Of a stretch of 5,884 nt of DNA, positions 3,664 to 5,884 are shown piece after piece (the first letter of the stretch is position 1; every line of letters begins with the position of its first letter). Both the position numbers and the translations under genes were made by a program. Source of the DNA: Candidatus Zhuqueibacterota bacterium (GTDB lineage Bacteria; BS750m-G25). The stretch is taken from positions 1-5,884 of the forward strand of contig JADHWK010000086.1 of assembly GCA_016783505.1 (NCBI GenBank), read 5' to 3'. Below the pieces are notes generated by a model that worked only from the letters and a program-made list of their open reading frames with translations, made no database searches and was not told where the DNA came from.

Positions 3664-5109
3664 ATGAAGGACCTCACGCAAATAGCTATTGATACCGCGG
3701 TTCAACGGGGGGCCAGCTACGCCGATTGCCGGATTGTGGAGACCCAAACCGAGGACATCACCGTTCGCAACGGTAAGATCGGGGCCCTCAATCATTCGGA
3801 AGACCTGGGGTTTGGGGTGAGGGTCATCGCCTCCGGAGCGTGGGGCTTTGCCTGCAGCAGCAGGGTGAACCGTGAGGAGGTAGCTCACGTCAGTGCCCAG
3901 GCGGTCCAGATCGCTCTGGCTAGCGCCCGGCTTAAGTCGGAAGATGTGCGGCTGGCCCCTGAAGGGCGCCACCATGATTGCTGGCAGACCCCTTTCCTCA
4001 TAGATCCCTTCCGGGTGTCCCTGGAAACGAAGCTGGATTTATTGCTGTCAATTGATAAGATTTTGAGAAAAAACCCTAAAATCAAGGCTGCTGAGGCCAA
4101 TCTGAGCTTTAAAAGGGAACATCAATGGCTGGCTACTTCGGAGGGTACGTTTATTGATCAACTCCTGTTAAGAAGTGGAGCCGGGTATACGGCCACCGCC
4201 GTGGAAGGTGACGATGTTCAAGTTCGGTCGTTCCCCAACTCCTTCCGGGGTCAGTTCATGACAATGGGCTATGAGCTGGTGCTGGGGCTGCCCTTGCTGG
4301 AAAATGCGGAGAGGGTCAGGGAAGAGGCACTAGCCCTGCTTAAGGCCAAGCCCTGCCCGTCGGGCCAAAAAGATCTCATCCTCGATGGTTCTCAACTGGC
4401 CCTCCAGATTCACGAATCGGTGGGGCATCCCACCGAGCTCGACCGGGTTATGGGGATGGAGGCTAACTACGCCGGTACCTCCTTCCTCAATACAGATAAG
4501 TTGAAAAATTTTCAATACGGATCGGAGATAATCAATCTGGTATGCGATTCAACCGTTCCCAACGGTCTGGCCACCCGGGGTTACGATGATGATGGGGTCC
4601 CATCCCAGCGCTGGCATCTGGTCGAGGATGGACGGTTTGTGGGCTATCAGTTTAATCGGGAACTGGCCCATCTGATAGATGCCTCCAGATCCAGCGGCAA
4701 CTCACGGGCTGACGGATGGGAGAACATTCCCATCATTCGAAACACCAACCTGAGCCTGATGCCGGGGGAATGGGAGCTTGAGGACCTGATCGCCGACACC
4801 AAAGAGGGGATCTACCTGGAGACCAACCGCAGTTGGAGTATAGACCAGCAGAGGTTAAACTTTCAATTCAGCACCGAAATCGGCTGGGAAATCAAAAATG
4901 GGAAGAAGGGGACCATATTAAAAAATCCCACCTATCAGGGGATTACCCCCCAATTCTGGCGTTCCTGTGATGCCATTTGTAATTCCAACTATTGGACGCT
5001 GTGGGGGGTGCACAACTGCGGCAAGGGCCAGCCTTCCCAGAGGGCGGAGATGTCACACGGAGCGGCCCCGGCCCGGTTCCGAAACGTCACTGTCGGTGTC
5101 CGGTCTTAA
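3664..5109 (+). CDS. tldD: TldD-type zinc metalloprotease
   Basis: This 481-residue cytosolic metallopeptidase of family U62 (TldD/PmbA) is complete. In enterobacteria TldD and TldE form a heterodimer that degrades unfolded peptides and removes leaders from some RiPPs, with the zinc site in TldD. HESVGH (residues 250-255) supplies the HExxxH motif, and Cys452 in NCGKGQP is the expected C-terminal zinc ligand, so this is the catalytic type rather than TldE. The N-terminal domain (ADCRIVETQTEDITVRNG) and the C-terminal FRNVTVG are both present. ATG 3664 is chosen over an in-frame TTG at 3622 because the TTG lies in a hairpin and adds 14 non-family residues; GTG at 3661 is an equal alternative. 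A weak GGGA lies 6 nt before the ATG. No tldE is next to it. Confidence 0.92.
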   Translation: MKDLTQIAIDTAVQRGASYADCRIVETQTEDITVRNGKIGALNHSEDLGFGVRVIASGAWGFACSSRVNREEVAHVSAQAVQIALASARLKSEDVRLAPEGRHHDCWQTPFLIDPFRVSLETKLDLLLSIDKILRKNPKIKAAEANLSFKREHQWLATSEGTFIDQLLLRSGAGYTATAVEGDDVQVRSFPNSFRGQFMTMGYELVLGLPLLENAERVREEALALLKAKPCPSGQKDLILDGSQLALQIHESVGHPTELDRVMGMEANYAGTSFLNTDKLKNFQYGSEIINLVCDSTVPNGLATRGYDDDGVPSQRWHLVEDGRFVGYQFNRELAHLIDASRSSGNSRADGWENIPIIRNTNLSLMPGEWELEDLIADTKEGIYLETNRSWSIDQQRLNFQFSTEIGWEIKNGKKGTILKNPTYQGITPQFWRSCDAICNSNYWTLWGVHNCGKGQPSQRAEMSHGAAPARFRNVTVGVRS

Positions 5110-5132
5110 AAAGTGGTTCTTCCCGGATTTGG

Positions 5133-5147
5133 GAGGGGTAATCAATT
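5133..5147 (+). repeat. left direct repeat of the DUF559 block
   Basis: GAGGGGTAATCAATT matches 5806-5820 (GAGGGTTAATCAATT) at 14 of 15 positions in the same orientation. It lies 24 bp after the tldD stop and may be a target-site duplication or the edge of the repeat family. Its GGGAGG also pairs loosely with CTTCCC (5119-5124), a weak post-tldD stem without a U-tract. Confidence 0.6.
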
Positions 5148-5173
5148 ATTCGATATCTATATTTAAGATCTTT

Positions 5174-5243
5174 CCCCTTGATGAGACTTGTAAGATTCCC
5201 TATTCGTAGGTTGCGATGGTTATCCCCCCGAAGCTTCGGGGGG
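5174..5243 (+). repeat. diverged copy of the 55-bp palindromic repeat unit, upstream of DUF559
   Basis: In order this stretch carries CCCCTT (5174-5179), GACTTGT (5185-5191), TAGG (5207-5210), ATGGTTAT (5216-5223) and a C-run (5224-5229). The downstream units carry the same blocks in the same order: CCCCTT, GACTTGT, TAGG, GTGGTAAT and a C-run. GACTTGT to the last C spans 45 bp here and 44 bp downstream. It ends in a perfect 20-bp palindrome, CCCCCCGAAG (5224-5233) against CTTCGGGGGG (5234-5243). This makes it a decayed relative of the tandem repeats beyond the gene. Confidence 0.5.
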
Positions 5244-5248
5244 GAATG

Positions 5249-5257
5249 AAAGGGGGG
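5249..5257 (+). promoter_or_regulatory. ribosome binding site of the DUF559 gene
   Basis: AAAGGGGGG sits 10 nt before the ATG at 5268. It is a slightly off-consensus Shine-Dalgarno whose G-run resembles the G-runs of the surrounding repeats, so the repeat may have supplied it. The strong palindrome at 5224-5243 is just upstream. Confidence 0.5.
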
Positions 5258-5267
5258 TGTTTAAGAC

Positions 5268-5642
5268 ATGGTAAAGAAAACTTATTACAATCCAAAACTG
5301 AAAGCACTCTCAAGAAGATTGCGTAGGAAAGGCACTTTATCTGAAGTTCTGCTTTGGATGCAAATCAAAGGAGGACAGATAAAAGGCTATAAATTCACCC
5401 GGCAAAAACCTATGGGGAATTACATTGTAGATTTCTATTGCGGCAGACTTCGTTTGGCGATTGAAATTGATGGCATCAGCCATGAAGACAAGTTCAAAGA
5501 GGATAAGATACGACAGAAGGAAATCGAAAAACAAGGTGTAAAATTCTTAAGGTTTTATGATTCTGATATAAAAAACAACATGGAAGGTGTGATAGCAGTT
5601 ATTAGGGATTGGATTGAGAGGGAGGAAAAAAAAGGGGTATAA
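5268..5642 (+). CDS. DUF559 (Vsr-like, PD-(D/E)XK) endonuclease-like protein
   Basis: This 124-residue protein is a complete DUF559 domain, a family related to the very-short-patch-repair endonuclease fold and predicted to cut DNA. Visible family blocks are TLSEVLLW (23-30, with Glu26), GYKFTRQ (40-46), YIVDFYC (52-58, with Asp55), AIEIDGISH (64-72, with Glu66 and Asp68), then the D79..R82 helix and FLRF (93-96). Asp55 and Glu66-x-Asp68 fit the acidic part of the active site, so it should be catalytically intact. It lacks obvious membrane segments or extra domains. Codon use is clearly AT-richer than in the three upstream genes, suggesting transfer. It is flanked on both sides by related palindromic repeats. 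The cellular role of DUF559 proteins is not established; repair, restriction-like activity or element mobility are possible. Confidence 0.88.
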   Translation: MVKKTYYNPKLKALSRRLRRKGTLSEVLLWMQIKGGQIKGYKFTRQKPMGNYIVDFYCGRLRLAIEIDGISHEDKFKEDKIRQKEIEKQGVKFLRFYDSDIKNNMEGVIAVIRDWIEREEKKGV

Positions 5643-5683
5643 TGCCTTAATAGCATTTAATAGGTTTTAACACCCCCCTACAT

Positions 5684-5811
5684 CCCCCCTTAATAGGGGG
5701 GACTTGTAGAAATGATAAAAGTATAGGCTTGGTGGTAATACCCCTTAATAGGGGGGACTTGTTAAAGGGATGAAGTGTAGGCTTGGTGGTAATCACCCCT
5801 TCATAGAGGGT
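5684..5811 (+). repeat. tandem 55-bp palindromic repeats, two units plus a partial third
   Basis: Hairpin cores lie at 5684-5701, 5741-5756 and 5796-5810 with a constant 55-bp period. In the first, CCCCCCT pairs with AGGGGGG around TAAT. Units one and two share 22 identical bases (5686-5707 and 5741-5762) and 16 identical bases, TAGGCTTGGTGGTAAT (5724-5739 and 5778-5793), around a variable 15-16 nt middle. The third core is decayed (TTCATAGAGGG). Additional TTAATAG fragments lie at 5647-5653 and 5657-5663, nearer the gene. Confidence 0.85.
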
Positions 5812-5820
5812 TAATCAATT
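5806..5820 (+). repeat. right direct repeat of the DUF559 block
   Basis: GAGGGTTAATCAATT matches 5133-5147 at 14 of 15 positions. It overlaps the G arm of the third hairpin core, so it may be part of the repeat family rather than a true target duplication. Confidence 0.6.
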
Positions 5821-5884
5821 TATAAAATAATTCATATAAATATTGCTACTTACAATAATCCGGGAATTACTAAAAAAGTTATCG
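5821..5884. other. AT-rich tail, nothing recognised
   Basis: No ORF, RNA or convincing promoter is visible in the last 64 bases. If a tldE/pmbA gene follows tldD in this genome, it would begin beyond the window. Confidence 0.5.

Follow-up and report, generated by a model that had tools for sequence, protein, structure and literature searches.

The locus analyzed here raises the question of whether a small nuclease gene lying among palindromic repeats is a mobile element, where such an element would end, and what would move it. The window, by which we mean the whole 5,884-nt stretch, spans the whole of contig C41 in a bacterial assembly (G000) of 2.5 Mb and 60% completeness and carries genes for a C69 peptidase, an Omp85-type protein and TldD, with a gene for a 124-aa DUF559 protein downstream of tldD. 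The original prediction placed this last gene in a 688-bp mobile cassette with a 15-bp direct repeat at either edge, in which a Vsr-like nuclease disperses with its own palindromic repeats by RAYT/REP-like logic. We retain the mobile-element reading but not the boundaries drawn for it: the locus is probably, if not assuredly, a copy of a minimal self-dispersing nuclease-repeat element, whose nuclease would drive its spread by cutting the cognate repeat. The repeats are of the BoxC/PIT/triplex type, a class recognized since the 1990s whose dispersal still lacks an explanation. The final 139 bases of the window (5746-5884) are identical, in reverse, to the end of contig C72 (G000:C72:43469-43607), so the sequence continues into C72, where the next long gene encodes a 431-aa membrane protein resembling an NfeD/ClpP-type protease.

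Parts of the element

The components that had been described at this locus are present. The tldD stop codon lies at 5109, and the block begins 24 bp later, as stated, with the first copy of the 15-bp direct repeat (GAGGGGTAATCAATT, 5133-5147); the second copy (GAGGGTTAATCAATT, 5806-5820, forward strand) matches it at 14 of 15 positions. Since a direct-repeat pair of equal quality and spacing is expected about 0.017 times per shuffled segment, the pair is not a product of chance. Related palindromic units flank the gene on both sides, with CCCCCCGAAGCTTCGGGGGG upstream (5224-5243) and, downstream, two copies of CCCCTTAATAGGGG (5686-5699 and 5741-5754) and a third that is degenerate (5795-5810). 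The gene is also AT-richer than tldD, as had been noted of its neighbours, having a G+C content of 36.8% compared to 55.0%. In addition, there is a perfect 10/10 inverted repeat, TTCCCGGATT at 5120-5129 and AATCCGGGAA at 5857-5866, which would form the terminal inverted repeats of a larger unit only.

The two repeats closest to the gene are both built of three blocks in the manner of BoxC/PIT/triplex motif (TM) class II repeats, with a mirror third block. A triplex-motif scan located the upstream repeat at 5223-5257 on the forward strand, as a pyrimidine (Y) block, a purine block and a mirror third block toward the gene, and the downstream repeat, which is inverted and likewise has its third block toward the gene, at 5672-5702 on the reverse strand. 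The DUF559 gene lies between them on the forward strand (5268-5642). The second downstream palindrome (5740-5757, at a spacing of 55 nt) has no third block; this and the degenerate palindrome at 5795-5810 belong to repeat family D3, and neither is assigned to a strand. The window repeats do not match the E. coli BoxC consensus, CCCTCNCCC N3-6 GGGNGAGGG N3 GGGNGAGGG, and constitute a different variant.

The gene product was identified as a DUF559 protein, in agreement with the original prediction, by a PF04480 match over residues 10-114 (E = 4.8e-31, 107.3 bits against a cut-off of 20.6). DUF559 and MTES_1575 were the only Pfam families found in the element's gene, and no Y1 (HUH) tyrosine transposase was detected there. 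An AlphaFold model of the protein (pLDDT 93.7) has as its nearest solved structure the DUF559 protein NGO0050 (3HRL; Z 16.0), followed by the EDxHD homing endonuclease I-Bth0305I (PDB 3R3P; Z 12.0, 2.3 Å over 94 residues) and Vsr (1CW0; Z 9.7), and its similarity to TnsA is weak (Z 6.3). The modeled fold is thus that of a Vsr/EDxHD-type PD-(D/E)XK nuclease. Four residues, E26, D55, H72 and D79, show no variation among 44 proteins, occur in an order that fits the EDxHD name, and are candidate catalytic residues. Taken together, the fold and these invariant residues make it likely that the protein is a DNA-cutting enzyme. As judged by comparison with the copy of the gene on contig C7 (dN/dS 0.37), the gene is under purifying selection.

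Copies in the host genome and the extent of the element

We located copies in the host genome by Pfam and blastn searches. There are four gene-bearing copies including that in the window, the other three being mostly decayed, and two shortened copies. The C7 copy retains an open frame and 86% DNA identity, the frame of the C17 copy is broken, and the C1 copy bears the gene with an insertion of approximately 215 bp. Of the shortened forms, that on C31 has an internal deletion, and that on C26 keeps both outer parts with one palindrome replacing the gene and its repeats. The copies sit in intergenic regions, and the neighbours of the C7, C1 and window copies all differ. The insertion in the C1 copy (G000:C1:140400-140646, L057) has inverted ends, TCGGTCAGGCACCCAGCCC and CAGTCGGGCTGGCC, which are like GTCGGGCGCC-type repeats found elsewhere in the genome.

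Alignment of these copies bears directly on where the element ends. Sequence similar to the outer left end (TTCTTCCCGGATT, 5117-5129, forward strand, including the left arm of the inverted match to 5857-5866) starts the C7, C1, C17 and C31 copies, and the adjoining left flank (5130-5222, forward strand), which includes the direct-repeat copy at 5133-5147, was aligned in the C7, C1, C17, C26 and C31 copies at unrelated loci. On the right, the copies on C26 and C17 both have sequence corresponding to the second direct-repeat copy at the equivalent position, and the outer right flank and right end (5821-5868, forward strand, inverted pair I10) were aligned with these two copies. Because the copies extend outward to approximately 5117 and 5868, the direct repeats do not bound the element; and because the direct repeat recurs at corresponding inner positions in most copies at unrelated loci, it represents subterminal sequence of the element rather than a target-site duplication. 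The 688-bp cassette flanked by a 15-bp target-site duplication is therefore highly improbable, notwithstanding that the direct repeat exists and is unlikely to be due to chance. No target-site duplication was recognized by eye at the aligned copy ends, which are uncertain by some bases.

The shared outer sequence leaves room for a larger unit, perhaps with a different agent of movement. The nuclease would then be a passenger, carried with its repeats inside a MITE-like unit of approximately 5117-5868 that an unlinked transposase moves in trans. This would fit the outer flanks and 10-bp terminal inverted repeat shared by the host-genome copies, as well as the C26 copy, in which both outer ends surround a single palindrome at the gene position. 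Alternatively, single-palindrome forms like that on C26 are the expected product of recombination between two repeats, which is compatible with recombination-prone G-run palindromes that spread by homologous recombination and horizontal transfer only, the nuclease having a host role. In other genomes, however, the shared unit ends at or near the repeats, and this comparison suggests a minimal unit of repeat, gene and repeat, 5223-5702 in the window.

The palindromes were also expected to be enriched near DUF559 genes. This was borne out within the host genome, where 7 of the 10 matches to CCCCTTAATAGGGG with at most one mismatch lie in element copies or 76 bp from a second DUF559 lineage. That second lineage (G000:C87:24405-24722, L009) has its own repeat variant, CCCCTCCCTTGATGGGAGGGG, together with a decayed gene remnant at C37:17466-17552 (L016) and solo repeat copies elsewhere.

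Pairing of repeats and nuclease genes across genomes

Scanning GTDB species genomes with a profile yielded 80 DUF559 loci, and a single scanner was applied both to 66 stand-alone DUF559 genes, which represent 13 phylum-level groups, and to 150 other genes from the same contigs. A triplex-type repeat was found within 200 bp of 53/66 DUF559 genes compared to 10/150 controls (Fisher 1e-27), and repeats were found on both sides of 38 and 0 genes, respectively (Fisher 1e-24). The mirror third block pointed toward the gene in 88 of 97 repeats (p = 2e-17), and the third block beside hairpins was a mirror copy at 62 loci versus a direct copy at 7 (p = 4e-11). A simpler inverted-repeat score was in agreement (median 25 versus 11, p = 6e-21), as was an independent set from unrelated genomes, in which 14 of 15 stand-alone DUF559 genes had a repeat. 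Where DUF559-like domains belong to large or Vsr-type proteins, none of the 12 examined had a repeat nearby. The scanner reported no repeat at 13 of the 66 stand-alone genes; several of these have interrupted or longer-loop variants, and at least two lack any. The DUF559 genes at L034 (G006:C31), L129 and L145, where the scanner missed the flanks, have longer hairpins or an extra hairpin between blocks, possibly further variants of the repeat.

Such repeats also adjoin DUF559 genes in named organisms, namely E. coli (ycjD), Klebsiella, Azospirillum and Picosynechococcus, and flank a gonococcal NGO0050-like DUF559 gene. The paired Klebsiella and Azospirillum replicon records, which have DUF559 genes beside repeats, share the same site and thus afford no empty-site comparison. 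In Klebsiella pneumoniae (L230, L231), an unannotated DUF559 sequence flanked by cysP and a gene for a Dyp-type peroxidase has E. coli-like BoxC repeats at its 3′ end. E. coli ycjD adjoins BoxC/TM copy number 9 of Table 1 in PMC4666352. At least 80% of a fabI-ycjD-sapF query was found in 3333 of 5426 E. coli genomes. The fabI-sapF interval (L166, L227) contains ycjD in K-12 and, in two other genomes inspected, an efflux operon after fabI instead, which we take from its published description to be eefRABCD; a third genome (L228) has an SMI1/KNR4-family gene in the place of ycjD. As ycjD is swapped with eefRABCD in the two genomes with that operon, this is not a simple empty site, and we rejected ycjD as a clean insertion polymorphism. 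We likewise rejected clean insertion of a single repeat at the E. coli BoxC sites adk-hemH and tauD-hemB, where the repeat is not the only difference between alleles.

Another genus, that of G004, has related cassettes for which we found cassette-free sites. Among its 16 species we scored repeats at 15 DUF559 loci belonging to at least four lineages. Similarity among nucleases correlated with similarity among repeats at these 15 loci (Mantel r = 0.83, p = 2e-4), and by this comparison the repeat variant tracks the nuclease lineage and not the genome: repeats of the same lineage in different genomes were 79-100% similar, compared to 39-65% for different lineages within one genome. In lineage A, a 34-nt repeat is identical at 34/34 positions between genomes, with gene dS near 1 and dN/dS near 0.07. 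The homology between cassettes of different genomes (approximately 445 bp) mostly ends at or near the outer repeat edges, and some cassette pairs at orthologous positions share flanks too. In the rpsB-rimO interval, the cassette of G004 was not found in 13 aligned congeners, among them G047, which has a solo repeat. A second interval contains the cassette in G043, G052, G053 and G054; it is absent from G049, where approximately 112 nt separate the conserved flanking motifs, and G047 has there a solo repeat of another lineage. No nucleotide-exact empty site and no clean target-site duplication was found in these comparisons, the cassette-free sites differing in the adjacent intergenic DNA as well. 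Repeat matches numbered 4-52 in congeners with the gene versus 1-4 in those without it (p = 7e-4), and repeat number was also higher with the gene across 41 diverse genomes (p = 1e-4). The outer repeat AAAATTATTTACACCATCTTCAACTATTTGTTAACCTG is common to two copies of one cassette, at G004 loci L048 and L051, and is also found elsewhere in L048.

Pairing within single genomes, as read from these sequences, argues most clearly against each of the three remaining alternatives. Movement in trans of a larger unit would be consistent with the outer sequence shared by the G004 copies as it is with that in the host genome, and this sharing counts against the reading we favor; the passenger explanation is nevertheless unlikely, if the least so of the alternatives, given that the repeat sequence follows the nuclease lineage within single genomes and that the same arrangement occurs in 13 phylum-level groups without a common outer element. 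Spread by homologous recombination and horizontal transfer only could draw on the hypervariability of TM loci in E. coli (PMC4666352) and on a DUF559 tree in which phyla are to some extent intermingled. We hold it to be improbable, as it leaves unexplained why each nuclease lineage has its own repeat variant within one genome and why repeat number follows gene presence. Finally, the nuclease may serve repair or restriction, the repeats being merely terminators or regulators of its expression. The Vsr- and restriction-type fold, a weak PADLOC hit (E = 6e-7) for a methyl-directed restriction enzyme and the closeness of the repeats to the start and stop of the gene would be in keeping with this; we give it only a slim chance in view of the tens of solo repeats in gene-bearing genomes, the lack of a partner methylase within the cassette, and the report that PIT/BoxC elements have neither promoter nor terminator activity (PMC4666352).

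We also considered and rejected two further lines of argument. The DUF559 tree, in which phyla are partly mixed, was not accepted as proof of transfer, most of its forks being weakly supported, and a phage origin was dismissed because a DUF559 relative occurs in only 1 of 50,697 phage records. This near absence from phages also counts against self-dispersal, as does one lineage, that of L048 and L051, in which the mirror block points outward, unlike in most.

A repeat-gene-repeat unit that recurs across genomes, is dispersed in copies, has repeats matched to its nuclease lineage and is present or absent at the same site would be accounted for if the nuclease itself drove the spread. The enzyme would recognize its own repeat, the probable form being a hairpin or triplex that extrudes when the DNA is supercoiled or single-stranded, and would cut at or beside it. 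Repair of the break could then copy to new places either the repeat alone, giving rise to solo BoxC/TM repeats, or the whole cassette, with an outcome like that of homing endonucleases and RAYT/REP pairs reached by other chemistry. While the association of gene and repeats is observed directly, it is in this sense that we infer nuclease-driven spread, and we regard the DUF559 nuclease as the first good candidate for the spreader of BoxC/triplex repeats. The origin of these repeats thereby becomes testable in a laboratory strain, through a family that spans from E. coli (ycjD) to candidate phyla. This link would also offer a reason why BoxC/TM loci are reportedly unstable, and it points to a function for a family that is still labeled as a domain of unknown function.

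Comparison with known systems

The repeats, the protein family and the logic of RAYT/REP pairs are separately known, and what appears to be new is the joining of DUF559 to these repeats. We found no earlier report of this link in a literature search to which most subscription journals and bioRxiv were outside. Like published BoxC/PIT/TM elements, the repeats described here have class II pyrimidine, purine and mirror purine blocks, are intergenic and dispersed, and also occur as inverted pairs. They differ from them as published in being linked to a nuclease gene, and those of the window are a sequence variant. In E. coli, triplex motifs were reported to have no link to gene function and no mobility genes nearby, and a single strand of the motif forms a triplex in vitro (Holder et al., 2015, PMC4666352).

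Vsr mismatch endonuclease resembles the window protein in fold, and a profile search with YcjD had detected Vsr (PMC1189080); unlike Vsr-type and large proteins, stand-alone DUF559 genes lie between repeats. The closest characterized fold to the window protein is that of I-Bth0305I, which comprises several domains and has an extended DNA-binding region (PMC3943268), whereas the window protein consists of the catalytic domain alone and its gene lies between palindromic repeats. In its arrangement, the locus most resembles REP/REPIN-RAYT systems, as a single enzyme gene is placed between inverted palindromic repeats and many solo repeats occur in the genome. RAYT (TnpA-REP) belongs to the IS200/IS605-type Y1 (HUH) transposases (PMC6006769, PMC8266576), while the enzyme here is an EDxHD/Vsr-like nuclease, and where REP palindromes are tagged with GTAG or CGTC, the DUF559-associated repeats have a mirror third block.
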